64,000 bases of DNA from Mesostigma viride (taxonomy: Eukaryota > Streptophyta > Mesostigmatophyceae > Mesostigmatales > Mesostigmataceae). The translations under genes and the position numbers were made by a program. The stretch covers positions 477,742 to 541,741 of the forward strand of contig RPFO01000938.1 of assembly GCA_009746045.1 (NCBI GenBank), in the 5' to 3' direction. Positions 2,251 through 54,799 of the stretch are shown here, piece by piece. The notes under the pieces were generated by a model, which did no database searches, was not told the DNA's origin, and saw only the letters and a program-made list of their open reading frames with translations. The number at the start of each line of letters is the position of its first letter. Position 1 is the stretch's first letter.

Positions 2251-2281
<31 letters not shown>

Positions 2282-3250
2282 CCAGCAGCAGCACCAGCGC
2301 CACCAGGAGCAGCTGCAGGAGGTGGTGGAGCAGGAGGGGCTTGGGGAGGAGGAAAGGAAGGAGCAGCAGCAGCAGCAGGTGGGGAAGCAAGGGTGGGTCG
2401 CGCCAGCCAGGGCGGTGCGGACGTGCTGGCATCCGCGGCCTCCTTCCTGTCATCCGTCACGTCGCTCCACTGGGTGGACGCGGGACTCAACTGCCGCGGC
2501 GTCTTCGTGACCGACCCGGCGGTCTTGGCCCAGGTGGGGGATGGGCGACCGCCCACGCTGGCGCCCGTGGCCGTGCATCCATGTGCACCGGCAGCAGCCC
2601 ATTCATCGGCACCAGGGGTAGCGAATCCTGTAGCAACCGAGACAGCACATCCCGCGACAGCGGCCGCAACAGTTCATCCGTTGGCGCCCGCAGCAGCACA
2701 ATCCGCAGCATCATCGTCATCAGCATCAGCAGTGGCGGAAGCAGCAGCATTGCACCCATCAGTGCCTCCAGGAGTACATCCGTCAGCCCTGCCAGCGGTG
2801 GCAAACACGCAGGGCGAGGGCGGCACACGAGTGTCCAGTGATGGCACGAGAGGGCACAGTGAGGGCACGAGCGCGCCGCATCGTGAGGGCGGGGGAGGGC
2901 ACGGGGGCGGCAGTTTGCGGCCACCCGCGCGGCTCTACTTGCACGGCACGCCGAGGAGCTGGGAGGACCGCCGGCGTCCCTGGATACCCGAGGAGAAGCG
3001 ACGATTCGTGGCCCACCTGCGTGACCACGGGGTCCCTGTCTGGGAGAAGCTGTACTTTACGGGCCAGCCGGCCAGCATGACGATGCACTTTGCGGTGTTG
3101 GATGAGATGGTGGTGGAAGAGGCGGGGGGAGGAGGGGGGGTATACCCCCGGCATGAGGCAAGGGGCGAAGTCTTGCTGCATGTTATATACATGCACTGCT
3201 TCCCATGCATAATGTGCCGCAGAGGGATTGTGGAATTCGTGCTGCTGTAA
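1466..3250 (+). CDS. C2orf69-family (UPF0565) alpha/beta-hydrolase-like protein, 5' end incomplete
   Basis: Predicted serine-hydrolase-fold protein; animal C2orf69 is mitochondrial. Seen directly: an N-terminal SVVYFPGD motif (about 1484–1507), a central GHSKGG nucleophile elbow followed by VLNQLL (about 2150–2190), HWVDAGLN (about 2467–2490), a C-terminal stretch with RSWEDRRRPWI (about 2950–2990), and MHFAVLDEM with the likely catalytic histidine (about 3080–3110). The order and spacing match C2orf69, which has FSKG, YWLDGG, RSWI and NHF at these places. Between the blocks are long Ala/Ser/Pro/Gly-rich insertions (about 2215–2400 and 2550–2900) that make it much longer than the animal protein. 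The frame is open from 1466 to the TAA at 3250; 1466 is chosen as a probable splice acceptor. The last ~40 codons after the conserved end are not family-like, so a 3' intron is possible. Confidence 0.72.
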
Positions 3251-24000: not shown

Positions 24001-24297
24001 TAGCCAAGGTATGCCACAAATAGCCAAACGCCCCTTAATTAAATTATTGATGTCATGAGAACTAGTTGTCTCACTTAATAAACTACTCTAATAAGCCGGC
24101 TAGAACAGAGTTAGCGATGCAGGTTCAAGACCTGCGCTCCCGGTCAGTAGATGACGCATGACCTAATGATTTTGAATAAAAAATTTGATCTGAAAAAACA
24201 AATTTGATCAATAGCTCCAGATTTCCGTGGCTTTCAAATGCGGCCAACCGCATGAATAAGATTGTCACGTGAATATTTGATATGATAATACTAATAG

Positions 24298-25320
24298 ACG
24301 ACGTTACGCAGACGACACCACCCTCTTTGAGGACACTGAGCACGTGCAGACATGGCTTGACTGCCTGGCTCTCGAGGCCCGTGCAGTGGGGCTTGAGGTC
24401 AGCAAGAAGACAGAGGCTCTGGCGGTTGGGCTCACCACCTCAGCGCCGCCCCTCTATCTCCTAGACGGCTCTCGAGTCCTGTATCGGGACCGCGTTAAGC
24501 TGCTGGGCAGCCTGCTCCCTAGCTGCGAGGTGGATGTGGACCACCGCATCTCCCTCGCCTGGCACGCTGTACGCCAGTACCGGGCCCTATGGCGCAAGCC
24601 CCTGGGCAAGATCGAGAAACAGGACCTGTTCAAGGTCCTCGTCCTTCCTGTTCTCACGTATGGCGCCGAGACGTGGACCCTCACCGCCGACCTGGCCCGC
24701 AAGCTGGACGGCGCGGTCACCAGCATGCTGCGTTCCATTTTCAGAGTAGGATATGCTGCTCATGTCCGCAATGAGGACCTGTACCAGGGCATGCCCTATA
24801 TCACCAGCACAATTAAGCAACGCCGCCTGCAGCTAGTAGGGCACCTAGCTCGCACCAACCAGGTAGACACCTCACGTGGCCCCCCGCAGGACTGCGACCA
24901 GCCCAGCCTGGCCGGCACCTCCTGACGTGGGCTGGGCCCAGTGATGTTAGACGCCGCAAGGCCCGCACCTTCAAAGAACAGCTAGTAGAGGACATGGGGG
25001 GCCTAGGCCTCTCCGTGATTTGGAAGAAGATGATGGACAAGGCCAAGTGGGCCCAGGTCATAGAGGACAACGAGCCCCCCCCAGTGGGGAAGCGCCCGCG
25101 TGTGCAATCCCGCGGGAGGCACGCTAGATAGCTCCCCCTAGGGCAGCGTGCGGCTGCCTAGATAGATGACGTAGATAGAATGTTGTTAGATAGATGTAGT
25201 ATGTAGCCAATGTAGATAGATTAGACCGGTAGGAATGTGTGCACCCATCCATCCATTCATCGGGGTTAATGCTCCGTGACTCCCCAACGGGAGCACGAGT
25301 CTAATTAATTAATTAATTAA
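24298..25320 (+). mobile_element. LINE-A, 5'-truncated copy with target-site duplication
   Basis: Encodes the end of a reverse transcriptase: YADDTTLF (catalytic YADD, about 24305), VKLLGSLL, the thumb-like LPVLTYGAETWTL (about 24645–24685), RRLQLVGHLART (about 24820–24855), then a basic C-terminus. Near 24885 a one-base loss in a C-run, compared with the copy at 42040, shifts the frame; the C-terminal part continues to a TAG at 25131. The 3' UTR ends with the hairpin CTCCCCAACGGGAG and (TTAA)n. The copy is flanked by TAATACTAATAG at 24286–24297 and 25318–25329, a 11–12 bp target-site duplication marking its 5' end. Confidence 0.88.
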
Positions 25321-25507: not shown

Positions 25508-28500
25508 TTATATCAGAACACCAATTTTATACTTGGCTTCCTCCAAGTAGGAGACTTGGACCACCCGGCCACCGAAATGGCGGCCATGAAGGGCAGTGGC
25601 AGCCACTGCCGCCTGTGATAGTTCGGCATATTCCACGAAAATCTGGCCCAGGGAACGAGGAGAAACAGAGGACCAGTCAACCGAGACATGGGCACATAAT
25701 GGACGGGTGAGGCAACTCTAAAATAAAGGACTGATTGAAATGATCATCCATGGCCATTGCACATTAGTCTCCTTCTATTTCTTCTATAGCTTGTCGGAAA
25801 GCGAACAGCGGACAACCCACCCACCAGCCCACCTTCCGACAACGACCAAGTCAACACTACAAGCAAAGACGTGTCACATCTATTATGGTGAGAACCAGAA
25901 CTCAAAACGTGAGAACCAAGTCTCTGTCTAACGTGAGTGCAGGGGAGGCAAAATGCGTCACAGAAAAAATTGCTGCTGTCACTCATAATGAAGCCGAAGT
26001 CTGTAAGTTATTGTTCTAATACGTAACTTATCATATCCCATTCCCGGTCCTTCCCTTTCCCACGTACCTCTGTGGTGCTACCCTGTGGTGCTCTCCACTC
26101 CTAATTCTACTCCCCCCCCCCCCCCCCCCCGCCCACCTCCTTCCTCTTCCTCCCTCACCTCACCCATGTGCTCCCGCTGCCCCCCCCCCTGCCCCTCACC
26201 TTGCCCACATGCTAGCCCTTCTCCCCCCCCACACCTTGCCCACTTGCTCGCGCTGCTTGATCACCAGCTCCCCTTCCGTCTCCCCCTCCTCTTCGTCCAC
26301 GAGTGGCCGCTTGGGCCGAGGGATGGTGATGTTGACCACCTGCCCGTGCTTACTGCACTCGTCACGCACGTCCTCCTTGATCTCCTCGTACTCGTCATCT
26401 TCCATCAGCTCTTCCGCCGTCACCTGCGCAAGCGAGGCGTATCGTCCACGAGGGGGCCTTCCACCCTATCAGTAAGAGGAAGCAAAACGACTAGACCAAA
26501 ACGAACGCTTACTTTTCCTTCCACCCCCCTAACGTGGCACGAGCACCCTACCATGATCTCCAGCACGATGGTAATCATTAATTACTGCACCAACTTGTCC
26601 CTTCCACCACCGGCATCATACCACATGGTACCAGCGCCGTACCATGTTGTCCAGCACGATATCGTTATACCCCCCTTTTCCCTCCCCCCCCTAATATGGT
26701 ACCAGCACCCTACCATGTTCTCCAGCACGATGACCCGCGACGATGCGCCCTTGGGACCTGCAGCGTCCAGCCCTGCCCCGGCCGCCCCCACGCCCGGGGA
26801 AGCGATACCGGCGCCTAGGCCGATGGCGTTGGCCCCCGTGGCAGAGGCAGCACTCGCCCCCGGCTGGCCCAGCAACCCCGTGAGGCCGCCGGTGAGGGAG
26901 GGCAGCGCGGTGGGCGTCGCGGCGGTGCCAGGTGGCGGCACGTAGTTCTTCGGCCGCCGAATGCGCAGAGTCTGCAGTGAGTTGACGGGCGAGCCAAGGC
27001 GGAAACAGAGGCACAAAGAGATGGAGATTGGGAAATCAAACGTCAGCACAATCGCAAATCACCGAGATGTTATCCGCATGACACGCAAGTACTTACTTAT
27101 TCAACGTCTAGACTAAAATGCCATACCCTGGAAAGTTCTAGCTTGCTCAGATATGACAAGCTGCCGCCCTAGACATGCCGTGGTCATAGGCGTGCCAGGA
27201 GAGGGGAGACGTGAGAACATGCCCAACAGAAAGCACATAGAGGCGCTTTCACGCTGGCCATTGACATGACATTTCATTCATTCATCCATTCATCCACCCA
27301 CCCACCCACCCACCCACCCACCCACCCACCCACCCACCCACCCACCCACCCACCCACCCACCCACCCACCCACCCACCCACCCACCCACCCACCCACCCA
27401 CCCACCCACCCACCCACCCACCCACCCACCCACCCACCCACCCACCCACCCACCCACCTACCCACCCACGCACAAACGCACAAACGCACAAACGCACAAA
27501 CGCACAAACGCACAAACGCACAAACGCACAATCGCACGCACGCACGCCAGCACGCACAAACGCCACACGCATGCCAGCACGCCAGCACACACGCACGCCA
27601 GCACGCACGCCAGCACGCACGCCAGCACGCACGCACGCACGCGCGCGCGCGCTCCCTCCCTCCCTCCCTCCCTCCCTCCCTCCCTCCCTCCCTCCCTCCC
27701 TCCCTCCCTCCCTCCCTCCCTCCCTCCCTCCCTCCCTCCCTCCCTCCCTCCCTCCCTCCCTCCCTCCCTCCCTCCCTCCCTCCCTCCCTCCCTCCCTCCC
27801 TCCCTCCCTCCCTCCCTCCCTCCCTCCCTCCCTCCCTCCCTCATTCATTCATTCATTCATTCATTCATTACTTCATTCACACGCCTTTGCAGGGAGAGTC
27901 ACACATTGACATAACAATACATGAAACTGGCAATTGACATGACATATGCCTGACATTGGCCAGGGTGCCCTACCGGGTATGCATCTCAAGCGACAAGTGC
28001 ATGACTATTTATGCAAACTTTGCCAGGCCATCACTGGTCATGGTCGGCAGGAGCACCAGGCTTCGCGAGAGCCACCCCTCTCACAGGGGTCCGCATGGGC
28101 CGAATCTAGCGAGGGGGACCTGCGGCCATGAGGCACGTACCAGTACCAGCACAACCAGGGAAAGGGCGCTCCCCATTGACACGGTGGATGCTAGTAGCCA
28201 GGACCAGGGCGCTCACTATCAACACGGCGGATGCTAGTAGCCAGGACAAGGGCGCTCACCTGCCCCCCCGACGGGCATCATCACGTCGGCGGCCTCTTCA
28301 CCCCATCAAGTTTCGTTTAAGTGGCCAGCCGGAGCGGCTGCTTAGGTTTTAGCGGGCAAGTGTTCGAAGCGCGTCATTGGTGAATTACTCGGGAACTTGG
28401 GTTTCCCCGCGAAACTCCAACCGCACGTTCAGATTTCCAAATCTCAAGTAAAGTTCGGCGCAACTTTCTGAACGGGGGCAGTTGACGAGCAGCATTCCTC

Positions 28501-31500
28501 CGGACGAATGAATTGCGTTCCATACTTGCGCAAAATTTTGAAAGGTAGCTTGCGTGCAGCCCTACTAAAATTTGCGCGGACGTTCAGATTTCCAAATCTC
28601 AAGTAAATTTCGGCGGAACTTTCTGAACGGGGGTAGTTGGCGGGCAGCGTTCCCCCAGACGAATGAAATGCGTTCCATACTAGCGCAAAATTTTGAAAGG
28701 TAGCTTGCGTGCAGCCCTACTAAAATTTGCGCGAAGTGTGGGACTGAAAATTCGTAACGGAAACTTTTTGGTAGTTGCCGTCACTTCCTCTTGTGCAAAC
28801 GTGTGGGAGTGAAAATTCGTAACGGAAACTTTTTGGTAGTTGCCGTAACTTCATTCTGCGCGAGTGTTGGGCTGAAAATTCGTAACGGAAACTTTTTGGT
28901 AGTTGCCGTCACTTCCTTTGGTTCGACTGAAAATTCGCTGAAATTCGCTGAATTCGTACCGTAGCCTAATTTTTAGTACCTCGAAGTGACGGGGCACCTA
29001 TAAATTTGCCCACAAGTACACTTGGCAGCGCGCTCACTGGGAAAAATTGTACAGCCGCTCCGGCGGGCCACTTGAACGAATTGTAATGCCTACCGCCTCA
29101 TTCCCTCGCCCCCTACCATCAATACGACCTCATGCCTCCTTCCCTATCCCCCCACTAACATGTGCACCCGGCACGTCTCACCTGGCCCCCGATGGGCAGC
29201 CCATCGAGCATCATCGCGTTGGTGGCCTCCTCGGCCGACCGGAGCTCGATGAAAGCAAAGTGCTGGTCCTGCTCAGGTGCATAAAAGGGGGGGGGGAGAA
29301 GGGGGAGACGCAGCAGGGGGGGTACAAGGGGGGCAGGGAGGTGGAGACGAGAAGATTAGCACAAGCAGGACCGCAGCTCGATGAAAGCAAAATGCTGCTC
29401 CTGGTAGGGGGGTGGAGGGTGGAGGGAAAATATACAGGGGGAGGATGAAAGGGGGGATGAGGAGACAAGGGAGGAGGGGAGGAGGAGGGAGCAGACAAGC
29501 AGGTTGGCACGTGGGGGAGTGCGTGGGTGAGCCGGTGGGCAGGTGAGTGAGCGGCTAGGCAGGTGGGTGGGGTGCATGGGTGGGCAGATGGGGTGGGGCA
29601 TGCAGAGATTGGTTGGCTGGTTGGTTGGTTGGTTGGTTGGTTGGTTGGTTAGTTGGTTGGTTGGTTGGTTGGTTGGTTGGTTGGTTGGTTGGTTGGTTGG
29701 TTGGTTGGTTGGTTGGTTGGTTGGTTGGTTGGTTGGTTGGTTGGTTGGTTGGTTGGTTGGTTGGTTGGTTGGTTGGTTGGTTGGTTGGTTGGTTGGTTGG
29801 TTGGTTGGTTGGTTGGTTGGTTGGTTGGTTGGTTGGTTGGTTGGTTGGTTGGTTGGTTGGTTGGTTGGTGGGTGGGCGGGTTGGTGGGTGGGTGGGTGGG
29901 TGGGTGGGTGGGTGGGTGGGTGGGTGGGTGGGTGGGTGGGTGGGTGGGTGGGTGGGTGGGTGGGTGGGTGGGTGGGTGGGTGGGTGGGTGGGTGGGTGGG
30001 TGGGTGGGTGGGTGGGTGGGTGGGTGGGTGGGTGGGTGGGTGGGTTGGTTGGTTGGTTGGTTGGTTGGTTGGTTGGTTGGTTGGTTGGTTGGTTGGTTGG
30101 TTGGTTGGTTGGTTGGTTGGTTGGTTGGTTGGTTGGTTGGTTGGTTGGTTGGTTGGTTGGTTGGTTGGTTGGTTGGTTGGTTGGTTGGTTGGTTGGTTGG
30201 TTGGTTGGTTGGATAGGCAGGGAGGTTGTGAAGGAAGCGTGACTGGGGTGACAAATGAAGGTCCGCTTGTAAGGGCTCGAGTACCGCTTGTAAGTGTCCG
30301 AGTACTGCTGCGAGGATACCCACGTTCCCCACACGAGCTTAGAACGTTGCAGTGTCCCCATGAGGATGTTAGCAAGGAGGCATTCGCCAAACCATAGCAA
30401 CACCATCTCCTTGCTATGGCACGAGGGCCTCTGCTCTGCACACGCATACCACAAACTCGGTCTCTTTGTTCTGGCACACACAGGCCCCTCTTTGTTCTGG
30501 CACACACAGGCCCCTCTTTGTTCTGGCACACACAGGCCCCTCTTTGTTCTGCCACACACAGGCCCCTCTTTATTCTGGCACACACAGGCCCCTCTTTGTT
30601 CTGGCACACACAGGCCCCTCTTTGTTCTGGCACACACAGGCCCTTCTTTATTCTGGCACACACAGGCCCCTCTTTGTTCTGGCACACACAGGCCCCACCC
30701 CCACCTGTGAGATCCAGGCCTTGGTCACCGGCCCCGGCCCCGTCGCGTTGGGCAGCGTCAGACCCGCGGCCGACAGCGCGCTGTTGAGGAAGGTGATGAG
30801 CGCCGCTTCGGTGATGCCTTGCGGCAGGCTGCCCACGTACAGCTCCTGGAGGGGGGGGGGGGGGAAGGGAGAGAGAGAGGGTGAGAGACCCAAAGGGGCA
30901 GAAAGGAAATCGGGGAGGAAGAATGGGGCAGAAAGGGGGAGGGGATGGGCAGAAGGGGGGTAAGCGAAAAAAGTCGGACGGGGCAAACAGGGCCAGAAAA
31001 TATCTTTCCCTTCTTGTCCAGGGCTTCGGGTTTAGGGATGGGGCGGAAAGCGAAGCATGGGAAGAGGGGGCACAGGGGACAAGGGTGGCGCGGTGTTGAA
31101 GGAGTCTGAGGGAGGGAAGGAACAAAAACGAACAGATGCAGGAGACGGGCGGGCAAGGAGGGAGACGACGAGCCTCTTGAAAGTTGACAGCGAGAGCGTA
31201 ACGTGGCTGACCAAATGGATGCGGCGCAGCATCCATGATATGGGGATGCAAAGGGGCTTGCTACCAGAAAAATGGGCTGATTCTCTCAATTATGTTCTGA
31301 AATATGAGATACGTATGCACCCGCCCTCAGCAGCTCACCCCCTATTGCCCTGCCCATCACCCCCACCTCCACCCACACGCCAACCCTGACCCTTTCCCAT
31401 TCAGGTGTCCTTGATATCTCCACCACCCGCACCAGGTGCCAAGGTACCAGGGATTTATTGAGTAGTTATTAGTCACCGATGTAGCAGGTATTGGTTAGTT

Positions 31501-34500
31501 AATTAATTGGCAAGGTAACGGGATGGCTACACAGCCTGCATGTGGGTGATACAGTGTCATGCACGAACGGTTGGCCGATGGAAACTAATCACGGCTGGGT
31601 CATGAGGAAAGCATGATGATACGCATAATGCCATTCCCCGTCACATTCATCTCAGGAACAGGGCGCCTTGCAGCCAGGCACCCCTCACACAAGCAAGAAG
31701 AGCCGGAGTACACCTAACGCTGGCATCCGCATCGATGCACCCCCCCAGGGCTCTCACCCCCCCCTGAGTAACCTCCCAACCCCGCACTGGCATCCACAGG
31801 GGGAACGTGCCCTGCTTGACGCAAGGCAGATGATCCCACCTCCCTCCGAGGGCAAAGGCAAAGTCACATCCGCAGGGCCCGTTAGCCAACTGCAAACCGC
31901 GATCAATCCGTCCTGACCACGCCCGCGAGCGTACCTCAGAGAGAGAGCAGCTACCCGGAGCTGTGGCTAGATGACAGTCATGCAATGGGGGCAAGTACCA
32001 AAGGTCAAAAGCCTAGCCAGTTGTGGGTACAACGTTCATGCTCTTCCAGGGCTGTCACCGATCACGTGTCCTTAGCTACTCGACGCATATTTATTTATTG
32101 TGTATATGTATTCATTGTGTCCTTAGCTACGCATGTTGCAAAGGAGACTAGGCGGCAGAGTGAAGCACAACAGCACCATAGCACACAACGGCAAACTTCG
32201 TGCCCCTGCCACTTATGGGCCTCATCCTTTGCCGGCAGATGAACCTGAAGGCTTGGACTCATGCATGTAAATTACTATCCCCCTGCTTGATTCCCATCGA
32301 ACCGCGTGCCTACACAACACACACAACACACTTTTGTGGCCACTGGCCTGCTGGCTGGGCCAGCGGCACTATTCCAGCCACACATCGAAATAAGCAAAGG
32401 CCCCAGGAAACTTCCACCAGCCTGCATGCACGAGCTGTCAAGCGCACCCTGGGGGTGTCAAATCCCTCTCACTCACATGTGACCATGGCCGTGGCCTGAC
32501 GGGGGCAAGGATACTTTAGCCGGCCGCGTATTGTATCCATATTTCCCAACTACGGTGCAGGTAAAAGACACGTAAACATGACCATGAGACAGCCACGAGT
32601 AGCACCAATCCAGCAAACCAGCCCCCCCCCCCCCCCCCCCCCCCACCCACCCCACACAGCCACCACCACCACACACACACAATTCTTAAGCCCCCCATGA
32701 ACATGAGATCCAGTGTCCCATAGACCATTATATATCCCCGTGTCAAAAGTGGGGAAAGGTCAAAGAGCAGTAAGCACGTAGGCGCACAGGCAAGGGATCA
32801 AAGCACATGGCACAAGGCACAGAGCACGCAGCACAGGGCACAAGGCACAGGGCGCCCGGGGGGCAACAAGGCAGGGCACGCATCACACAGCACAAGTCCA
32901 ACGCACAGGGCAGCAGCAGCAGCAGCCAAAGGTGATGGGTCATGGCAACCCAGGGTGGAGCCTAAAATATCACAAGTCAAATAGCTTTCGAACGGAACCC
33001 GGGCGCCCATGGACGACATCAATCCCAGATCCAAGCCGTTCGACTGCATATTTGCCAGCGAAATCTACCTACGATGAAAGAATGATATGAGACAAGGAGG
33101 GGGGCTGGCATGACAAAGACTGGACGAATGCACCTAAGGAGCCTTTGCTGGGACTTTGAGAGCTCTACCCCCACGAGCCCCCTCGCTTACCCTCCCTATA
33201 CCAATCTTAGCCAGCCCTGCCAGCCCTCCACCCCATCGTAATAAGCGGCCAGCGCTCACACAGCTACTAGGTGAGCACCCTCGCATTGCCGCTATATGTA
33301 ACATCACCACTATACATATCACCGTTACATATCTCGCCGCAATACAGCGCCGCCGCTATAAATATCATCGCCGCAATACATGGGCGTTGGCATCCCGCAG
33401 GGCATCCTCTTTCAGGCCCCATCAAAGGTATGTCGGATGCCGTGTATGATCCAGCGAAGGACATGGGTACGCACAACCCATCATGGTCACCCTGCGTATA
33501 TGGCCTGTGTATATGGCCTGTGTATATGGCCTGTGTAAATGGCCTGTGTATATGGCCTGTGTATATGGCCTGTGTATGTGGCCTGTGTATCTGGCACCCC
33601 AAGCCTAGTGCCGCCATGCGGGCGCAACACACACATCGCCATGTGGGGGGCATACCACCATCCAAAAGCAGCATCAAAGCCACTATCCGAATACCCGTCC
33701 AAACAGGCATTCAAATGTACTAACGGTACTTCAAATATAAACCTACACGTAACACTATACATATTATGATCCCATCGTGTAGAAACAGCCCTACCTTGTG
33801 CGTCTTGTTCACAGTCGCACTCGCCGCCGAGAGCGCCTGCAGGTGCGAGATGAGGGCCAAGTTGGGCTGACCCGGGAGCACAGGAAGGGCAGGGCTCTGG
33901 CTCGCAATGCCGCCCAGCAGTGACGACATGCCCGCGGCCGCCGCGGAGGCTCCCGCGAGTCCTGGGAAAGGGGACATCCCCGGAATCCCTGGGAGCAGCC
34001 CTGAGAGTCCCGTCGCCGAGGGGAGGCCAAAGGGTGACGCTGCTGGCATTAGCGGGTTGAAGCCAGCCAGGCCCGTGGCTGAGGGCAGTGTGGGGGTGAT
34101 CGTGGGAAAAGTTGGCGTGGGGGTCGACGCTGTTGGCAGGCGCGCCGAGATGGCCGCCGCGGCAGCAATGGCCGCCTGAATGGGGTCCGTTTTGGGAGGC
34201 GCCGGCGCGGGCGCGCTGGCAGGCGCTGGCGCCGTGGCCGCTGGTTTCTCCGCGGGCCTGTCCTCCTTTCTACCCTTGTCTGGCGACCTCCTGCGCTCTC
34301 GGCTCCTGCTCCGGCTCCGACTGCGGCTGCGGCTGCGGCTCCGTCGTCGGCTTCGTCGACTGTCGTCCCTGTCTCGACCTCGCCTATCCCTGTCTCCGTC
34401 CCTATCTCTGTCCCTATCTCTGTCCCTATCCCTATCCCTATCCCTATCCCTGTCTCTCTCCCTATCTCTGTCGCGGTCCCGGTCCCGGTCCCGGTCCCGG

Positions 34501-34565
34501 TCCCTTTCTCTATCTCTGTCCCTATCTCTGTCCCGGTCATCATCTCTTCTACGATCGGAACCCAT
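25508..34565 (-). CDS. U2AF2: U2AF65-like splicing factor lacking RRM2
   Basis: The U2AF large subunit binds the polypyrimidine tract at 3' splice sites and recruits U2 snRNP. Six exons, all phase 0: 34565–33795, 30845–30705, 29268–29182, 26971–26714, 26423–26235, 25642–25508, giving 526 residues. Order: N-terminal Arg/Asp and Arg/Ser repeats (residues ~5–95), Ala/Pro/Gly-rich linker, RRM1 (RNP2 LYVGSL ~259; RNP1 HFAFIELR ~307), last RRM1 strand LRIRRPKNY (~335), a Gly/Ala linker, then the UHM (VIVLENM ~413, [31 protein letters not shown] with the R-x-F motif). Canonical U2AF65 has a second RRM between the RRPxxY strand and the UHM; here one exon holds both ends with only ~70 low-complexity residues between. 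No Trp is seen in exon 1, so the usual U2AF35-binding tryptophan is not evident. Confidence 0.88.
27293..27868. repeat. Compound microsatellite (CACC)n–(CGCACAAA)n–(CTCC)n–(ATTC)n
   Basis: Blocks in order: (CACC)n at 27293–27458, an 8-mer CGCACAAA array to about 27530, irregular ACGCACGCCAGC units to about 27645, (CTCC)n at 27650–27841 and (ATTC)n to 27868. It lies in the U2AF65-like intron between exons 29268–29182 and 26971–26714. Confidence 0.95.
28400..28950. repeat. Short tandem duplications in U2AF65-like intron
   Basis: Two ~155-bp copies beginning GTTCAGATTTCCAAATCTCA (about 28425 and 28581), followed by three ~65-bp copies of TGAAAATTCGTAACGGAAAC plus TTTTTGGTAGTTGCCGT (about 28745–28915). 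No coding signal. Confidence 0.85.
29356..29400 (-). pseudogene. Duplicated RRM1 exon fragment (possible poison exon)
   Basis: Just upstream (in gene orientation) of exon 29268–29182 lies a second copy of that exon's start. It follows a strong polypyrimidine tract and CAG acceptor and encodes [11 protein letters not shown], against [11 protein letters not shown] in the real exon. It then runs Cys-Leu-Cys and a TAA stop at 29358–29356. The phase matches the preceding exon, so inclusion would truncate the protein inside RRM1. Confidence 0.7.
29605..30211. repeat. Symmetric (GGTT)n–(GGTG)n–(GGTT)n microsatellite
   Basis: (GGTT)n at 29605–29866, (GGTG)n at 29867–30044, and (GGTT)n again to 30211. 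Nearly perfect. It lies in the intron between the two RRM1 exons of the U2AF65-like gene; on the transcribed strand it reads (AACC)/(CACC)/(AACC). Confidence 0.97.
30460..30697. repeat. 26-bp tandem repeat, about nine copies, next to an exon
   Basis: Unit GGCACACACAGGCCCCTCTT plus TGTTCT. The array ends within 10 bases of the 5' splice site at 30705, so in the transcript it forms the first ~240 bases of the intron. Confidence 0.93.
33494..33598. repeat. 13-bp tandem repeat in first U2AF65-like intron
   Basis: Unit GTATATGGCCTGT, about eight copies with minor variation. Confidence 0.9.
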
Positions 34566-40379: not shown

Positions 40380-40925
40380 AAAAAATTAAATTAAATTATA
40401 ACATGCCGCCGTTGGGAGGTCATGTACATAGCACATATTCCATGATGGATGGGGTGGAGGAAGCCGCGTAATCGAACTATCCTAACTCTAAGCTATCTAG
40501 TCTAGAAAATCCTAACTACACTACTCATCAAAACGCCGCCTCCGCTTGGGGGGAGGGGGCTTGCCCACAGGGTCGGGCGTGTGCGCCTTGACAATCCTCT
40601 TCCACCGCGTCTTGTCCTGCATCATTGGCAGCCCAAAGACGGGAGAGAGAGTGGATGCGGTGCTCAAACTGGGCTGGGACCACTAGGTCGTCCAGCAACA
40701 TCTGGATGTAGTTCGTGACAGTTTTCCCTACCCTTTTGGGAATGCCCTCGGGGCCAGGCCAGGTCAGAATGTGTCGCCCTGGCTGGCCAAGCCGCTGGGG
40801 GCCGGCCAGACCAAGGGCGGTGTCGACCTGGCTGGTGCGAGCAAGGTGTCCTACAAATGCTATCCTACGCTGCCTAATCTCGTCCGAAATACGGGGCATG
40901 CCATGATACAAAGACAGTCTGATGG
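40380..40925 (-). mobile_element. LINE-B 3' fragment, best preserved copy
   Basis: Reverse strand: an open frame of 127 codons (40911–40528) with RQRRIAFVGHLARTSQVDTA, then LGQPGRHILTWPGP, TNYIQMLLDDLVVPAQFEHR and a Pro-rich end. The 3' UTR and hairpin CCGTTGGGAGG (about 40411) precede an ATTAAATTAAATT tail at about 40383. VGHLART is shared with LINE-A, so the two families are related. Confidence 0.8.
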
Positions 40926-41155
40926 CGGACGTTCTGAAAACCCAACGTTAAGGACCCCTTTTCATGTTTACACTTTTTCATTGGACTGAGCTGGGCACGA
41001 GGCTTTAGACCCTGTTGGATAGGAGACCCCCGTCCGCACTCCGCAGGCACCATGGGTGCTGAAACATCGAACTCCTGGCCCATACTCCAACATCGCCGGC
41101 CTGTGCCTCACCACATCCCAGTCGGCTAGCAATGACCTCTTTCTTTATTCCATTT

Positions 41156-42497
41156 AGATGTGGACCATCGCATCTCCCTCGCCTGGCACGCTTTACGCCA
41201 GTACCGGGCCCTGTGGCGCAAGCCCCTGGGCAAGATCGAGAAACAGGACCTGCTGTTCAAGGTCCTCGTGCTTCCTGTTCTCACGTATGGAGCCGAGACG
41301 TGGACCCTCACCGCCGACCTGGCCCGCAAGCTGGACGGCGCGGTCACCAGCATGCTGCGTTCCATTTTCAGAGTAGGATATGCTGCTCATGTCCGCAATT
41401 AATTAATTAATTAATTAGACTCGTGCTCCCGTTGGGGAGTCACGGAGCATTAACCCCGATGGATGGATGGATGGGTGCAAACATTCCTACCGGTCTAATC
41501 TATCTACATTGGCTACATACTACATCTATCTAACAGCATTCTAACTACAAAGTTCTTCTAACTACAACATCTATCTAGGCAGCCGCACGCTGCCCGAGGG
41601 GGAGCTATCTGGCGTGCCTCCCGCGGGACTGCACACGCGGGCGCTTCCCCACTGGGGGGGGCTCATTGTCCTCTATGACCTGGGCCCACTTGGCCTTGTC
41701 CATCATCTTCTTCCAAATCACGGAGAGGCCGAGGCCCCCCATGTCCTCTACTAGCTGTTCCTTGAAGGTGCGGGCCTTGCGGCGTCTAACATCACTAGGC
41801 CCAGCCCACGTCAGGAGGTGCCGGCCAGGCTGGGCTGGTCGCAGTCCTGCGGGGGGGCCACGTGAGGTGTCTACCTGGTTGGTGCGAGCTAGGTGCCCTA
41901 CAAGCTGCAGGCGGCGTTGCTTAATGTCCGCAATGAGGACCTGTACCAGGGCATGCCCTATATCACCAGCACCATTAAGCAACGACGCCTGCAGCTAGTA
42001 GGGCACCTAGCTCGCACCAACCAGGTAGACACCTCACGTGGCCCCCCCGCAGGACTGCGACCAGCCCAGCCTGGCCGGCACCTCCTGACGTGGGCTGGGC
42101 CCAGTGATGTTAGACGCCGCAAGGCCCGCACCTTCAAGGAACAGCTAGTAGAGGACATGGGGGGCCTAGGCCTCTCCGTGATCTGGAAGAAGATGATGGA
42201 CAAGGCCAAGTGGGCCCAGGTCATAGAGGACAACGAGCCCCCCCCAGTGGGGAAGCGCCCGCATGTGCAATCCCATGGGAGGCACGCCAGATAGCTCCCC
42301 TAGGGCAGCGTGCGGCTGCCTAGATAGATGTTGTAGTTAGAATGCTGTTAGATAGATGTAGTATGTAGCCAATGTAGATAGATTAGACCGGTAGGACTGT
42401 TTGCACCCATCCATCCATCCGGCATCCATCGGGGTTAATGCTCCGTGACTCCCCAACGGGAGCACGAGTCTAATTAATTAATTAATTAATTAATTTT
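41156..42497 (+). mobile_element. LINE-A host copy, interrupted by a nested LINE-A
   Basis: Host parts are 41156–41399 and 41935–42497; joined across the insertion they follow the LINE-A sequence at 24530–25320 without a gap. It encodes LPVLTYGAETWTL, RRLQLVGHLART and the basic C-terminus to TAG near 42294, then the 3' UTR, hairpin CTCCCCAACGGGAG and (TTAA)n. Flanked by TTCCATTT at 41148–41155 and 42498–42505, a likely 8-bp target-site duplication. Confidence 0.85.
41400..41923 (-). mobile_element. Nested LINE-A insertion, 5'-truncated, with 11-bp TSD
   Basis: Reverse-strand LINE-A: (TTAA)n tail at 41400–41418, hairpin, 3' UTR and C-terminal coding region up to the AATTAAGCAACGCC region. The repeat ATGTCCGCAAT lies on both sides, at 41389–41399 and 41924–41934. 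With the downstream host part it forms an inverted repeat with ~520-bp arms and a ~50-bp spacer. Confidence 0.9.
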
Positions 42498-45378: not shown

Positions 45379-48300
45379 TTAATTAAGGGCCATCAGCTCG
45401 CTGTCCTTGGACACCTCAGGCCCCCGCAGCGTGCCGTCCGCGCCACAGTACAGCACCGCAAACTCCAGCCCATCAATCAGCGCCCGGAAACTCGACTCAA
45501 CGATACTCGTGTGTGCACCCACGGTGGACCAGGTGCCCCCCCCCGAGGACTGGAACTTGATGGTGACACGTGTCGTGGACATGGATCCCCCCTCCGCGTT
45601 GCCACCCGCGCCCACCTCGAGCAGGCGGACGGAATAGTCCGCGATGCGCACATGGTCGAGCTGCGCGTAGCGGGGGCGCAGGCCGGCGTAGAGCGCCTTC
45701 CAGAGCGCGTCCACGGGGCCGTTGCCTGCAGAAGTTTTGTTTGTGTGGGGGGGGACAAGGACGGAGAGGGATGGAGGGGGAGGGAGAGCAGAAGCAGACG
45801 GCATTAGGAGGGGATGGAACAAGGAGCAGAGAAGGGGCACGAGGGGATGAAAAAGGGAACATGTAAAAGAGACGAGGGGACAAAATGGGCCACATGGAGG
45901 CGGCGTGGCGGGATGAGACAGGGCACAGAAAAGGGGCATGGGCTGGGCTGGGCTGGGCTGGGCTGGGCTGGCGGACCTAGCTTAGTCCATTGCTGTAAAG
46001 ATGAGCTGCCAGCCCCATAGGCCAGGGTGGATGCTGTGACAAGGACCCCGGGCCAGTTGAACCGATGCATAACTTGAGAAGGAAAGACAGGGAGGACAAG
46101 AAAGGACAAGGGTTGCGAACCGGGTTGGTCCATACTGCAATACGGTGATTACGCGAGCATTATAAACCCCCATGTGAAGCATGGACCAACAAGGGTGGCG
46201 AGCAAGAGGGGCGCCCATGGGTGGCAAACAAGGGTTGCGATAAGCCCCCATATCATATTGGGACAAGCCATATGGGCGGCAAGACGATGCCGGGTTGGCT
46301 GACCTTCTGCGGCGTGGAGCGACGGTCTGGCGCCGTCCCTTGTTTCGATCTTGACGATGGCCTGCATGACACGCCCACAGATAGCGAATAGTGCGGCCCC
46401 ATCAGTGCCGCATAACAATTGCTAAGAAAACACTGCATCACACCCAGGCAGGCAGGCAGGCAGGCAGCAGGCACCAACGACACCATCCAAGGCAACCCTG
46501 TGAGAGCTATGGAGCTAAACATCGAGCGGCGTGAAACCGTGGCAATGGCCAGCAAACAGCCTCCCCAAATCCGAGGGAACAAAGGAAAGAAGGAATCATT
46601 CCCTTCCGTTCAGAACAACCTCTCTTTTGAAAGAATATTCCATGCCCACCTTGCTTTCCTCACGCACACCAACACCAGCATCCTACTTGGCGGTGCCCTT
46701 TCCACGCCACCCACCCCACCCCCACGCACCCCAACACCCACCCCACCCTCACGCACCCCAACACCCACCCCACCCTCACGCACCCCAACGTAATGAAGAC
46801 ATCTGGTCGACGCCGGCGGCGCTGCTCCTACTTTTCTTACAGACACGCCTTCGGCCCCCACCTGGTTGACGTTAGCGGTGCTGCTGGTCTCCTCGACCGA
46901 CCCGATGCTCTCGGCGTCACGGTTGGACGAGACGACCGAGTATTCGAGCACGTGGAACTTGCGCACGTACCTGGGGGGTGGTGTGGCCAGGGATAGGTCG
47001 AATGTGCTAAGGGGACACCAGAGACATGCGAGGGAAGTGCTAGATAAGGACATACGGGACGGGAACTCGTGCACACACCTGGGGGTGTATGGCATAAGGA
47101 AGACAAAAGGGAGCCCGCACGCGGGCAAGGCAAGGGGATGCTGAGGCCGTACAAGGTCCCTGGTACAAGAACACCGCGCCAACGGAATAACAAGAAAAAC
47201 AACAAGCTGGAACTTGCGCAGGTACCTGCACAGAGCTTAAGACAATCTGACAGAATAACATCAGATGAAAAATATAACCATGAGTTGGGGAGAGATGAGT
47301 ACCATACCCGTGCATGGAAGCAAGCAGGGCAAGACATTCAACAAGGAGCATGTGCTGGAATTCGCGCACGTGCCTGGGGGGCAAAGAAAGCATGGGAAAA
47401 CATGGCGGGGCATCGCCCAGGGGAAACATGAGCGAGACAAGGCCCGCGCGGAGCAAGCTCATGAGCGACACCAATACTGAACATGGTAATCACAACAACC
47501 AGTGATAGGGTACGCACTAACTTAGTGGCAGCTCCCTCGTCCATGCGGCGCAGGACCATATGAAAAAATGGGCTAGCATTCAATCAATGACAAAAACGAT
47601 AACCAGGACCACCGGGGATGCTAACCATGGTTACAACCACTACTGCCACTCACTTGTCCATGCGCCGCAGAATCATGAGCGACACCGAGGCCGACGCGCC
47701 CTCGAACGCGCACCCCTCATTCTCCAGCTGCTTGATGCGCGACAGCACACTGCCCGCCGTCACTTGGTCGATCTCGAAACCGGATCGCTGCGCGCTGTCC
47801 AGCACGTTCGCACGCCCGCTCAGCTCGCTCAGCACGCTCGTCATCCCGTTGCCGACGAGCGTCGGGTCGATGTGGTTGTACGAGCGCGGGTTCTTGCGGA
47901 TCGCCGACACGTGGACGCCGCCCTTGTGCGCGAACGCGTTCGCGCCCACGAAGGGCATCGAGGGCAGCCAGGGCTGGTCGGCGATGGCCGCGATCGCCTC
48001 GGAGATGGCGGACAGGGACGCCAGCGAGGACTCGGGAAGGCACGGGTGGCCCATCTTGAGGTGGAGGGTCCCGATCACGCTCACCAGGTTGGCGTTGCCG
48101 GTGCGCTCGCCGTAGCTGGGGAGGGGGGGGGGTTAATGGGGGTGTCAGGTAGGCAGGGTTGAGGGGATGTTAGTGAAACGAGCGTGCTTGATGACCACGA
48201 GTGTTGCCGGTGTGCTCGCCATCGCTGGAAAGAACAGAGTGAAGGTACTGTGGAGGGGGGATGGGCAGACTGGCGCATGAGAAAGGATGCGGTGCGACTA

Positions 48301-51300
48301 TTGGCACATTACTATCACTTCTAAATACAAGGTTGCTACCTAACAACTACTTAGCAACACAATGCGCTCGCCGTGGCTGGAAACAGAGGGGGAGCGAAGG
48401 CAGGGAGGCAGGAACGGCAAGGATAACTAAGACCATGTCAGAGATGAAAAGAGGGGGAAAGGGGAGGCGATACACCGTCAAGTCAAAGAGAGAAAGTTGG
48501 TTCAGGTTCATGAACTCATGGCAATCAGTTACTGCCAGCGCAGCGCATGGCAGATGCCACGCAGATATAAACCACATCCACCAACAAGGAGTAGCGAAAA
48601 AGAGAAGGGGGGCGGGAAGGGGGTTAAAGACGCACCCGTTCATGCAACCCTGCACGAGCGTGGCGCCCGCGTGCACCGCCGCGACGCTGTTGGCCACTGC
48701 CATCTCGCAATCGTTGTGCGTGTGGATGCCCACGCGGACCGGCCCGCCCGCCGAGTGGGGCATGGCGGCGACCACCCTCCGCACCGCCTCCTCCACGTTC
48801 CAGGGGAGGGAGCCGCCGTTGGTGTCGCAGAGGACGACGGTGGACGCGCCGGCCTCTGCGGCGGTGCGCAGGCACGCGATCGCATAGTCCGGGTTGGCGG
48901 AATAGCCGTCGAAGAAGTGCTCGGCATCGAGCATGACCTCACGGCCCAGGCGCGCAAAGTAGGAGACCGAGTCGCGGATCATGCGCAGGTTGTTGTCCAG
49001 GGTGGTCTCCAGGATCTCCGTCACTTGCATGTCCCACTGGGAGGGGGGGAAGGCGGGGTGGGGGTGGGGTGGGGTGGGGGTGGGGTGAGGGTGAGGTGGG
49101 GGGGGTGGGGGTGGGGTGGGGTTGGGGGTGGGGTGGGGTTGGGGTTGGGGTGGGGTTGGGGTTGGGGTGGGGTAAGGGGGATGTGAATGGGGGTGAGCGG
49201 CATGGCTGTGCGGGTTGGCAGTAGTTGGTCACTTGCATGGTCCACTGGGAGGGGGTGAGGGGCAGGGGGGGAGAGGAATTGGATGTGAATGGGGTGGGTG
49301 GGATGGGATGTGCGGGTAGTAGTTGGTCACTGGAATGGTCCACCGGGAGGCAAACGGGGGATTGGTATTGGGTGGGTGGGCGGGGTCCAATTGGGGTCAC
49401 TAGCACGTCAAGCTGTGATGCAGCACGGGGGTGGAGGGGGCGTTGTGGGTGGTGGGTGGGTGGGTGCATGTGGGGGTGTCAATAGGAGATCACTGCCATG
49501 TGTTATTGCGGGAGGGGGGGGGGGGGGGGGGGGGGAGGGTGGATGGATGCATCCCTGCCGGTGGATAGGTATGCGGGTGCATGGGTGGATTGGATGACAC
49601 TGCTCATGTGTCACCAATCAAGCCCGTCACCATCTTAACAAAAGGTACATAACGGGCACCCCATCTATGTAGGTGGATATGACTGTGGAATCGTGGGATG
49701 GGGTGGACGTGGTGCCATGTCTTGTCAGATGCATGCCTAGGCACGCCTCACCGCCCTGGCAAATAGCCCAGGCAAGACATGTGGGGGTGTCTATAGCTTC
49801 GCCGTCTTGGCGGAAAGTGTGGGCAAACCCTCACCGTCTTGGCAAACAGGGTGATGACGGGCGCTCCGCTCGCCACCAGCGCCTGGATGTTGCCGTCCTG
49901 CTCGCATGTCTTGTTCTGGCGGGCGCAGGTGGTCGACGAGATTGCAGTGACAGCATCGATGATTTCATTAAAAAGCTAGCCATGGCGGTGACGACGGCAG
50001 AATGACGGTGGACAGCAGGTTGCCAAAGACCGTCACCGTGAAGACCGCACCACGGCCGTGGTGGCGGTGACAACAACCATTGCCGTTCACTACATGAAAC
50101 TTGCTGCTTGACTACTGAAAAGAAGACGTGGCGGCTATGGCCCAGCAAGCAGACTCCACTGGCGATGGCATCAACCACGTAGATGGCAAGCTCAGAACAC
50201 TGAGGGGTACGGGGTGTGTGTGTCCAAAATCTTGGAATTTCGATATTGGGTGGCCTGCATTGTAGGGACTTGATGGTCTTGAGGGTGCGCCAATCCCTCT
50301 GCCTCGCACCTTCTTGCCTTCGGTGGGCACCCTAACCCTGAAAACTTCCTCTTCTTAGTGGGCATCCCTACCTGCTAACCCCTCCTCTTCTTGGTGGGCA
50401 TCCCTAACTGCTAACCCGTCCTCTTCTTGGTAGGGATCCCAAACTCCTTACCCCTCCTCTTCTTGCTGGGCATCCCTACATCCTAAACCCGTCTCGTCTT
50501 GGCGGGCATCCCTAACTCCTGAGCCCTCCTCATCTTGGTAAGCGACCCTCTTCCTTGTAGCGGCAGCCCGAGGCGACCACAAGGAAAAGCAAACCTCAGC
50601 ACACTCTTACCTTGTGGCGCGTGGACCCAAATGCCGCCAGCTTGGGCCCGTCCGGTGGACAGTACTGAGCGATGCGGATGCAACGTGGACGCAACGCAGG
50701 TGCAGAGCCGAAGCACAGCCGAGCCGCGGGGAGGCGCATCAGCCGACGCAGACCACGGCATTGGGGAGAACCCATCGTAGTGGGGGGGAGGACGCATCGA
50801 AGTGGGGGGGAGAACGCATCGAAGTGGGGGGGAACGCATCGAAGTGGGGGGGAACGCATGGAAGTGGGGGGAGAACGCATCGAAGTGGGGGGAACGCATC
50901 AAAGTGGCGGGGAGGACGCATCGAAGTGGGGGGAACACATCGAAGTGGGGGGAGAACGCATCAAAGTGGGGGGAGAACGCATCGAAGTGGGGGGAGAACG
51001 CATCGAAGTGGGGGTGAGAACGCATCGAAGTGGGGGTGAGAACGCATCGAAGTGGGGGGGAACGCATCGAAGTGGGGGGGGGGGCGCATCGAAGGGGGGG
51101 GGACGCATCGAAGTGGGGGGGACCGCATCGAAGTGGGGGGGGGAACGCATCGAAGTGGGGGGGACGCATCAAAGTGGGGGGGACCGCATCGAAGTGGGGG
51201 GGAAGGCATCCAAGTGGGGGGGAACGCATCGAAGTGGGGGGTTACAATTCATGCTGTTAGGGGGACAAGGGTATTTTTTTGGGGGGGAGTAAGCGCCACA

Positions 51301-54300: not shown

Positions 54301-54799
54301 AAACAGTTGCTGTCAACTGACCAGCGTCCTAAACGCCAATCGGATCACAAAGGAATCCTGAGGTCCCCATAGGGCCCAGCAAATTACGCAACTGTTCCGT
54401 GCATCTTCTCTGCAAAAGTACCCACCGCATACTAAAGTAGCCCAGTGGGGCTTTGCTTACCATTTGAGCTCCATCTCGGAGCGTAGAGTCGTAGATCTCG
54501 ACGAAACCCTTCCTCGTGGGCTTCCCGTGGGCTTGCGTCCATCCGTGCTCTGCTACATGACTATGTCCATTTCTAGGCTCCAGCGGTCCTATCGGGACCG
54601 AATGGGATGCAACCACACGAGGCTGCATATGCATGCCCCCATGTGACGAGATCCCACGGCTTCCCAATGCCACAGGGGCGCAACGAACAATGTCCCTGCT
54701 ACACCCGAGAAAGCTATTGCCCCTCGCATGCACGCCCGAGGGCTCGCATAGCGCGGCCAAGTAACAATTCACGCTGAGACGAGCGGAGAGTGCCTCCAT
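45379..54799 (-). CDS. cimA: (R)-citramalate synthase (CimA type), putatively plastid-targeted
   Basis: Condenses pyruvate and acetyl-CoA to citramalate, opening a threonine-independent route to isoleucine. Ten exons join in phase: 54799–54461, 53535–53450, 52019–51971, 50664–50611, 49915–49835, 49036–48636, 48115–47654, 46970–46862, 46361–46304, 45725–45379; about 661 residues. Seen: VEIYDSTLRDGAQ (~100–112, catalytic Arg/Asp), YIEGGWPGSNPKD (~138), DAEHFFDGY (~240), GIHTHND (~307, metal-binding HxH), GYGERTGNANL (~338), GANAFAHKGGVHVSA, and a C-terminal allosteric domain with EGNGPVDALWKAL. EGGWPGSNPKD and DAEHFFDGY mark the bacterial CimA class rather than LeuA. About 95 residues precede the enzyme and look like a transit peptide. 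An upstream in-frame ATG (54904) would add 35. Transcript support is needed for exon 50664–50611, whose acceptor is weakest. Confidence 0.88.
49041..49180. repeat. G-run tract in citramalate synthase intron
   Basis: Repeated GGGGTGGGG and GGGGTTGGGG units immediately upstream of the 49036 acceptor region (plus strand G-rich, transcript C-rich). Another 25+ base G run lies at 49508–49536. On the plus strand it is able in principle to form G-quadruplexes. Confidence 0.85.
50775..51245. repeat. ~20-bp minisatellite, about 22 copies
   Basis: Unit AACGCATCGAAGTGGGGGG with variable G-run length. It lies in the intron between exons 52019–51971 and 50664–50611, just upstream (in gene sense) of the latter. 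Confidence 0.93.
51363..51612. repeat. 37-bp minisatellite, about six copies
   Basis: Unit GGGCGGGAGGGCAAGGCGTA CAAGGCCAACCGAACAC. Same intron as the 20-bp array. Confidence 0.93.
52285..52413 (+). mobile_element. Element D fragment
   Basis: 5' part of element D only (ATCAAGGAGACAACCAGCGC to GGAGATGGAAATGTGTAG), in the citramalate synthase intron. Confidence 0.7.
53215..53275. repeat. 13-bp repeat, about four copies
   Basis: ACACATCTAGGCA units. In the citramalate synthase intron, followed by GGACCAGGGGGCGGGG-type repeats (53320–53385). Confidence 0.85.
53635..53803 (+). mobile_element. Element D fragment
   Basis: ATCAAGGAGACAACCAGCGC through ATTATGGCTGGCTTACGTGT, then sequence diverges. 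In the first citramalate synthase intron. Confidence 0.7.
53858..54028. repeat. 10-bp minisatellite, about 17 copies
   Basis: Units GGGCAAGCAT / GGGCAAGGAT / GGGCAAGCGT. In the first citramalate synthase intron. Confidence 0.93.

Follow-up and report, generated by a model that had tools for sequence, protein, structure and literature searches.

The window analysed here, a 64,000-nucleotide stretch of Mesostigma viride DNA, carries on its minus strand a gene that is very likely an old paralogue of U2AF65 without RRM2. We favor, with moderate confidence, a fuller reading in which the product is a functional, old U2AF large-subunit paralogue that acts as a competitor or bridging factor and shifts 3' splice-site choice; this degree of confidence applies to the whole statement, structure plus mechanism. 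The structural part is described from the gene itself, and the expression, partners, RNA preference, and splicing effect of the protein we infer from it. By the accepted view, U2AF65 needs both RRMs for its grip on the pyrimidine tract, and a natural, retained paralogue that lacks RRM2 is a ready test of what RRM1 plus the UHM do alone, one that allows a clean comparison because an RRM2-bearing U2AF65 is present in the same genome. The window gene could also show whether a UHM protein with minimal RNA binding can define or veto 3' splice sites.

The gene extends from 34565 to 25508 and comprises six exons encoding 526 amino acids. The exon junctions were placed by homology and splice consensus, and all introns are in phase 0 with GT-AG borders.

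33795..34565, minus strand: exon 1, 257 codons; start codon, RS-like region with RD/RS repeats, then an Ala/Pro/Gly-rich stretch
30705..30845, minus strand: exon 2, 47 codons; first part of RRM1 (human RRM1 match, E 2e-6)
29182..29268, minus strand: exon 3, 29 codons; middle of RRM1 (human RRM1 match, E 9e-7)
26714..26971, minus strand: exon 4, 86 codons; RRM1 β4, a low-complexity linker in the place of RRM2, and UHM β1 (human RRM1 match, E 0.002)
26235..26423, minus strand: exon 5, 63 codons; UHM acidic helix and β2 (human UHM match, E 1e-13)
25508..25642, minus strand: exon 6, 44 codons and a TAA stop; the remaining UHM with the GRHF (R-X-F) motif (human UHM match, E 2e-4)

The span 26714–29268 of the initial annotation corresponds to exons 3 and 4 only. 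The encoded protein consists of an RS region, a U2AF65-type RRM1, a 68-residue Gly/Ala/Pro-rich linker, and a U2AF65-type UHM. Exon 1, which ends in a phase 0 GT donor, contains no Trp, and its RD/RS repeats give the protein the U2AF65-type N-terminal RS region that had been proposed. Exon 4 (borders ...ctgcag / gtaggg) is open and in frame and, as had been described, starts in the last strand of RRM1 and ends in the first strand of the UHM with the residues VIVLENM. The UHM is intact, as had also been claimed, keeping the acidic helix as well as GRHF, and exon 5 has an acidic insertion in the loop after β2. TGTAA occurs 136 and 143 nucleotides downstream of the stop codon.

The assignment of the protein to the U2AF65 family is based on both domains. 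The best PDB match of RRM1 is U2AF65 (1.6e-21), with no other protein matched there at E up to 0.001, and the UHM scores 70 bits against U2AF65, as compared with 38 for RBM39, 37 for SPF45, and 31 for PUF60. Against TIGR01642 (U2AF_lg) the protein scores 228.2 bits, under the curated cut-off of 310.3, whereas a sister protein encoded elsewhere in the genome scores 452.5, above it; the scores against TIGR01622 (RBM39 / CC1-like; 74 bits, cut-off 231.65) and TIGR01645 (PUF60 / half-pint; 45.3 bits, cut-off 443.95) are also under the curated values. Pfam at E up to 1 identified RRM_1 and RRM_occluded only, and the G-patch of SPF45 was not found in the protein. SPF45, RBM39, and PUF60 carry a UHM and act in splicing apart from the core U2AF heterodimer, as the window protein would, but it is far nearer to U2AF65 than to any of them.

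RRM2 was not found in the window, in line with the initial annotation, which had called it missing from the gene. In a loose tblastn search of the whole window with human RRM2 (E up to 50), the best of 60 rows was an RRM1 exon at E 0.24. In control searches, human RRM1 found its three exons (E 9e-7, 2e-6, and 0.002), and human UHM found two of its three (1e-13 and 2e-4) but missed the third piece, the few residues that close exon 4, so that an RRM2 fragment of like size would escape, whereas a 77-residue domain should not. A Pfam scan of the three minus-strand frames of 34800–25301 found no RRM except that the last UHM exon matched weakly (E 0.17); this is a weak test, because the split RRM1 was also missed. 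A scan for RNP motifs gave no RRM2 in the introns or in other parts of the window. Pfam RRM_1 matches two stretches in the window protein as compared with three in the sister protein.

The linker, estimated at ~70 Gly/Ala/Pro-rich residues when the exon was first described, has 68 residues from RRPKNY to RVIV, of which 78% are G/A/P/S/T, two are charged, and none is aromatic. An RRM2 remnant in it is unsupported (z 0.1 against the RRM2 of the sister protein and 0.0 against human RRM2), as is an origin by fusion of the two linkers of the sister protein (z 0.4 and -0.1). It scores z 1.4 against the N-terminal stretch of the sister protein and resembles only the window protein's own N-terminal stretch (z 2.9, 7/1000 shuffles). 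An AlphaFold2 model of exon 4 alone, from a single sequence, has a mean pLDDT of 55.7 and one short helix, and the linker is probably disordered.

A search of the 440 Mb assembly identified a second U2AF65 that has RRM2, on contig C1912 (C1912:2645089-2654200). The RRM2 of this sister gene is encoded by three exons, and the 5' end of the gene is interrupted by a run of N. U2AF35 is encoded on contig C2189, with 62–63% identity to the human protein in three matched stretches. With the window protein as query, all 27 genome candidates were scored and only the window and C1912 genes reach E 0.001; with the sister protein as query, no third U2AF65-type gene appeared among the 82 scored of 204 candidates. 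The RRM2-bearing gene on C1912 means that the window gene is a paralogue, and it rules out the window gene as the sole U2AF65 of the genome. The initial annotation had suggested altered 3' splice-site recognition or a specialised paralogue. As a property of the organism, the former is unsupported, since the genome still encodes the standard U2AF pair. The paralogue of the latter stands, given the second U2AF65 and U2AF35, and that it is specialised we infer. Its further observation, that exon 1 has no U2AF35-binding Trp, is correct, in that the ULM Trp is absent and the sole Trp of the protein model is residue 301, within RRM1. This absence is not distinctive, however, since the readable part of the sister gene also lacks the Trp, and it was therefore dropped as a special trait.

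The window and the C1912 stretch share 28 matches at 67–97% identity, of which one is a UHM exon and the others, outside the gene models, are shared repeats; because these repeats are common to both, a contaminating contig is unlikely. Cytosolic L3 and light-harvesting proteins are indicative of a green alga. The less green look of the window gene, relative to its sister, also raised the question of a host whose green plastid is secondary; this was judged unlikely, from the match pattern of cytosolic ribosomal L3 (first seven matching chains at 524–538 bits, several of which we take to be plant ribosomes, and the next at 461) and from the first U2AF35 exon, which is nearer to plant (72% identity to what we take to be a plant sequence, versus 62% to human). 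Against this judgment, the first five rows for a CP26-like protein are long chains of LHCI from entry 9vfj, and the CP26 chains come after them.

The window gene looks old: its distance from its sister is about the same as the distance of either gene from human. The pairwise identities among the window, sister, and human proteins are all alike (52/51/44% in RRM1 and 54/47/48% in the UHM), and the site patterns among the three number 25/22/19. A tree that groups the window and sister genes was rejected on RRM1 plus UHM (AU p 0.016), in a comparison that includes sequences which we take to be plant U2AF65 and which were chosen after the sister gene was known. A recent duplication was rejected on RRM1 alone as well, but not on the UHM alone (p 0.124). 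Between window and sister, 24 of 43 shared fourfold sites differ (0.56; random expectation 0.66). These same-residue sites are thus not fully random, and high GC3 restricts the possible difference. GC3 is 0.83–0.92 in exons 2–5, 0.70 in exon 1, and 0.51 in exon 6, and the introns have an overall GC of 0.557. RRM1 and the UHM have 49–54% identity to human although fourfold sites are near saturation, which suggests that both domains are under constraint.

In human numbering, RRM1 of the window protein keeps the aromatic RNP residues, Arg227, and Arg228, and it has Glu in place of Arg150, Lys in place of Arg149, and His in place of Asn196; when aligned without a gap, Gln147 corresponds to Thr. 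Human U2AF65 Q147A and R227A have five-fold weaker RNA binding (PMC4786784, excerpt), and R149W, R150H, and R150C reduce it three-, four-, and five-fold (PMC11542177, excerpt). The 3' splice sites of the 13 introns compared, a small sample, are C-rich in the window gene (52 C to 29 T over five sites) and in the sister gene (76 to 50 over eight), and therefore do not single out targets of the window protein.

From its domain content, the window protein is probably a specialised helper in choosing intron ends, and would work beside the RRM2-bearing U2AF65 and U2AF35. Its UHM, with the acidic helix and R-X-F kept, would dock on SF1 and SF3B1 ULM peptides in the manner of U2AF65 and SPF45, while RRM1 alone may bind weakly to the 3' portion of the pyrimidine tract, without the uridine-strict input of RRM2. 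In free human U2AF2, RRM1 is masked and the uridine-stringent RRM2 is left available (PMC7261175, excerpt); because this masking depends on the closed RRM1/RRM2 form, RRM1 of the window protein is predicted to be exposed at all times. The protein has an RS region but lacks a U2AF35-binding motif of the Trp type, and would be no straightforward substitute for the heterodimer. It could be an auxiliary splicing factor of the UHM type, with weak and relaxed pyrimidine binding, that acts as a competitor for SF1/SF3B1 or as a bridge and alters the choice of 3' splice site in some introns, probably C-rich or weak-tract ones.

A broader version, which we put forward only tentatively, is that the gene represents an ancient, distinct RS-RRM1-UHM class that predates the divergence of this alga from land plants and runs parallel to canonical U2AF in green algae. 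Proteins of this class would be free of RRM2 auto-inhibition and uridine stringency, with RRM1 alone reading C-rich or weak tracts and the UHM coupling to SF1/SF3B1, and the cell would define 3' splice sites by two routes in parallel. Should relatives keep the RRM2-less form, it would be an old second U2AF large-subunit branch in the green lineage. In viral_contigs, no relative of this layout was confirmed with the protein query (25 stretches matched) or by UHM alignment (600 stretches matched).

It is rather unlikely that the protein is mainly a dominant negative or buffer, whose UHM ties up SF1/SF3B1 with no productive binding at 3' splice sites and so lowers splicing of U2AF-dependent introns. 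The retained UHM signature, combined with an RRM2, a U2AF35-binding Trp, and several RRM1 contacts that are absent or changed, is consistent with such a role, and the SPF45 UHM competes with U2AF2 for SF3B1 (PMC9247205, excerpt, citing others). However, RRM1 retains its aromatic core and Arg227/228, which would be unneeded for pure sequestration.

Horizontal transfer from a non-green eukaryote into the alga, in place of an old duplication, is distinctly unlikely. The window gene falls outside the group formed by its sister and the sequences taken to be plant U2AF65 (AU p 0.016), and its protein is slightly nearer human than its sister, human being the only non-green comparison. In contrast, the window protein shares some residues (GPG, EExxNAMxLDG) with the green sequences, and a phase 0 intron lies at the same UHM position in the window and sister genes, just before IFVEY / VYVEY.

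We consider it improbable that the gene is a decaying U2AF65 duplicate or pseudogene, transcribed or not, that lost RRM2 on its way out and has no function. A recent duplicate of the sister is rejected as described above. Exon fragments and a MITE-like element in the introns point toward decay:

29369..29400, minus strand: copy of the first 32 nucleotides of exon 3, 91% identical, with its own pyrimidine-rich stretch and AG upstream; stop after 14 codons
28272..28299, minus strand: degenerate copy of part of the second half of exon 3, 82% over 28 nucleotides, in intron 3
26660–26643 and 26570–26552, minus strand: two copies of the last 18–19 nucleotides of exon 4 together with adjoining intron sequence
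28312..29080, strand not assigned: MITE-like element in intron 3, with 29-nucleotide terminal inverted repeats (93%) and internal tandem repeats

The low GC3 of exon 6, the altered RRM1 contact residues, and a sister gene able to do the work are in line with this. They are opposed by 526 codons open across six exons with GT-AG borders, all in phase 0, and by the RRM1 and UHM identity to human that persists despite near-saturated fourfold sites. An assembly artefact, with loss of an RRM2-coding segment from within exon 4, is very improbable: the introns flanking exon 3 contain long tetranucleotide arrays that could trouble assembly, but exon 4 is contiguous and N-free, its reading frame continues over the junction, it has no long repeats in the window (nothing but its final 18–19 nucleotides recurs nearby), its linker holds no RRM2 remnant, and the RRM2 of the sister spans three exons.

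The old, RRM2-less paralogue that we favor can be compared with several known systems. U2AF65 / U2AF2 (TIGR01642) is the best family by a wide margin, sharing the RS-type N terminus, RRM1, and the C-terminal UHM, but the window protein differs from it in lacking RRM2 and the ULM Trp, in the change of Arg150 to Glu, in the longer acidic UHM loop, and in a score below the family cut-off. A natural U2AF65 without RRM2 was not met in the literature searched, which covered subscription journals only to a small extent and other sources in part; one item "lacking RRM2" concerns an RBM39 mutant, and human RBM39 without RRM2 partly rescues splicing, whereas RBM39 without RRM1 does not (PMC10477243, excerpt). 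Mud2 of budding yeast is also a U2AF65 relative that keeps the UHM, its only recognisable portion (PMC8624252, excerpt), whereas the window protein clearly keeps RRM1 and coexists with an RRM2-bearing U2AF65 and U2AF35. The U2AF2 of Entamoeba histolytica is likewise an atypical large subunit, and is a reported splicing inhibitor, but it has both RRM1 and RRM2 and has gained a KH-QUA2 domain (PMC9247205, excerpt). U2AF2-beta of the tunicate Fritillaria borealis is, like the window protein, a diverged U2AF large subunit present in addition to a conserved one, although it retains the domain arrangement and is likely to stem from a recent duplication in that lineage; this divergent paralogue, expressed in mammalian cells, prefers weak-tract introns and provides a precedent for specialised 3' splice-site use (PMC13326754, excerpt).

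The U2AF65-like gene on the minus strand of the window (the window gene) consists of six exons that join in frame to encode a product of 526 residues, and all of its introns are GT-AG and of phase 0.

34565–33795 (−), exon 1: RD/RS-rich region and an Ala/Pro/Gly-rich stretch
30845–30705 (−), exon 2: part of the RRM
29268–29182 (−), exon 3: part of the RRM
26971–26714 (−), exon 4: first codons end the RRM, last codons start the UHM
26423–26235 (−), exon 5: UHM
25642–25508 (−), exon 6: UHM

Exons 2 and 3 and the start of exon 4 encode a single RRM. The linker from this RRM to the UHM has 68 residues, 78% of which are Gly, Ala, Pro, Ser, or Thr, with two charged and no aromatic residues, in agreement with the ~70 Gly/Ala/Pro-rich residues described in the initial annotation. 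The RS-like N terminus and intact UHM described there are likewise present, the former as the RD/RS-rich region of exon 1 and the latter with both its acidic helix and its GRHF motif. AlphaFold2 modeling of exon 4 alone, which as a single-sequence prediction is weak evidence, gave one short helix and a mean pLDDT of 55.7. The RRM1 part matched only U2AF65 chains in the PDB (E up to 0.001; best 1.6e-21), and the UHM scored 70 bits against U2AF65 as compared with 38 for RBM39, 37 for SPF45, and 31 for PUF60. The whole protein scored 228 bits against the U2AF large subunit model TIGR01642 (RBM39-type model, 74; PUF60-type, 45); this is under the cut-off of 310 bits, which fits a relative without one domain.

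The absence of RRM2, the main claim of the initial annotation, was upheld by tblastn of human RRM1, RRM2, and UHM over the entire 64 kb with deliberately loose settings. Human RRM1 recovered three exons (E = 9e-7, 2e-6, and 0.002) and human UHM two of three (1e-13 and 2e-4), missing the short UHM strand that exon 4 contributes; the best match of human RRM2 in the window was an RRM1 exon (E = 0.24). The linker did not score above shuffled sequences against RRM2 of the sister gene described below (z = 0.1) or of human (z = 0.0). In the open-access literature surveyed, we met no report of a natural U2AF65 without RRM2.

The window corresponds to positions 477742–541741 of contig C2233 (950,960 bases) in the 440-Mb assembly. 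When the genome was searched with the window protein (E up to 0.001, all 27 candidates scored), only its own exons and one gene on contig C1912 were found, and the same C1912 gene was the first match of human RRM1-RRM2. The second U2AF65 with RRM2 that the initial annotation had proposed to seek is thus present. This sister gene, modeled by hand, has nine exons encoding RS, RRM1, RRM2 (divided among three exons), linker, and UHM; its protein scored 452 bits against TIGR01642, over the cut-off, and has 526 residues as counted from a chosen start near an N run that truncates the 5′ end. No third U2AF65-type gene was found with the sister protein among the 82 of 204 candidates scored. U2AF35 is present on contig C2189 as three matched stretches with 62–63% identity to human. 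The N terminus of the sister protein has a basic stretch followed by SGFDQ (RRRPSGFDQLP), which the window protein does not have; at a guess, it perhaps substitutes for the Trp-type U2AF35-binding motif. TGTAA, the chlorophyte polyadenylation signal, occurs 136 and 143 nt past the window-gene stop and is absent within 500 nt of the sister-gene stop.

The window and the C1912 stretch very likely belong to one genome because they have 28 matches in common (67–97% identity), one of which is the UHM exon and the others repeats. A light-harvesting protein of the genome scored up to 251 bits against CP26 chains and related chlorophyll a-b binding proteins, below five longer LHCI chains from the single entry 9vfj. 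Five light-harvesting genes on two contigs have exactly equal scores and are probably a recently multiplied family. Cytosolic ribosomal protein L3 matched seven chains at 524–538 bits (next, 461), several of which are presumably from plant ribosomes. Taken with the TGTAA past the window gene, these matches suggest a green alga.

RRM1 identity is 52% for window-human, 51% for sister-human, and 44% for window-sister; the corresponding UHM values are 54, 47, and 48%. At sites where two of the three agree, window and human are alike at 25, sister and human at 22, and window and sister at 19. Of the human and the two plant sequences used for comparison, human RRM1-RRM2 and UHM were checked. To the plant RRM1, the sister gene has 74–77% identity and the window gene 42–43%, and the sister gene groups with plants whereas the window gene does not. 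A tree joining window and sister genes was rejected for RRM1 plus UHM with the two plant sequences included (AU p = 0.016); by domain, it was rejected for RRM1 alone (0.017) but not for UHM alone (0.124). The two genes have in common a phase-0 intron within the UHM, before IFVEY/VYVEY, and differ in RRM1 intron positions. Among shared fourfold sites in codons that encode an identical residue, 24 of 43 differ (0.56; random expectation, 0.66). Protein similarity has therefore outlasted most synonymous similarity, a pattern that would fit purifying selection.

The introns of the window gene contain the following elements.

29369–29400 (−): copy of the exon 3 start, located 132 nt upstream of that exon and preceded by a pyrimidine stretch and AG of its own
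28272–28299, 26552–26570, and 26643–26660 (−): short duplicated segments of exons 3 and 4, each in the intron after its exon
28312–29080: MITE-like element in intron 3; inverted repeats of 29 nt, tandem repeats in its interior
27290–27860: very long tetranucleotide array, intron 3
29600–30210: very long tetranucleotide array, intron 2

Because reading from the AG of the exon 3 copy reaches TAA after 14 codons, this site could serve an unproductive, self-limiting isoform. The short copies appear as if pieces of exons and their splice sites had been tandemly copied. The units of the arrays in introns 3 and 2 are GGGT and GGGA, and CCAA and CCCA on the minus strand. Elsewhere, the window contains four further features.

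47653–49228, possibly to 54931 (−): HMGL-like domain and homocitrate-synthase-type second domain (Pfam PF00682, PF22617)
62220–62549 (−): histone-fold protein (Pfam Histone, 2e-11; CBF/NF-Y, 6.5e-8)
1379–3247 (+): ORF with a C2orf69 (PF10561) match at residues 35–276
24281–24922 (+), also 40531–42300: reverse-transcriptase-end-like pieces (YADDTTLF) and tail

From its two Pfam matches, the first is read as a putative isopropylmalate, citramalate, or homocitrate synthase-like gene; 54332–54931 has no Pfam match. The reverse-transcriptase-like pieces recur in the window and on C1912, and 24281–24922 gave no Pfam match at 0.001.

In human U2AF65, RNA is contacted by Arg146 and Gln147 of the N-terminal extension and by Lys225, Arg227, and Asn196 of RRM1, and Q147A and R227A each lower affinity about five-fold (PMC4786784). 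Losses of three-fold for R149W, four-fold for R150H, and five-fold for R150C are given in PMC11542177. The window RRM1 keeps the aromatic core, Arg227, and Arg228, with Lys225 replaced by Arg; Arg149 is changed to Lys, Arg150 to Glu, Asn196 to His, and, on an ungapped reading, Gln147 to Thr. The sister protein has Arg at 149 and 150 and Lys at 196.

Free human U2AF2 is described in PMC7261175 as adopting a closed form that hides RRM1 and leaves the uridine-stringent RRM2 alone available. Because RRM1 is hidden in that form, loss of RRM2 would free RRM1 of the window protein and relax the demand for uridine, with lowered affinity. The visible 3′ splice sites of both genes are C-rich in the 22 nt preceding the last three intron bases (window, 52 C:29 T at five sites; sister, 76 C:50 T at eight). 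The retained acidic helix and GRHF make it likely that the UHM docks on SF1 or SF3B1. We infer that the window protein may, at a subset of introns, serve as an auxiliary factor, either competing with standard U2AF or bridging it. For RBM39, the form minus RRM2 partly rescued splicing, whereas that minus RRM1 gave no rescue (PMC10477243). The nearest functional precedent is a tunicate with duplicated U2AF2: expression of its diverged copy in mammalian cells is associated with splicing of introns whose tracts are weaker (PMC13326754).
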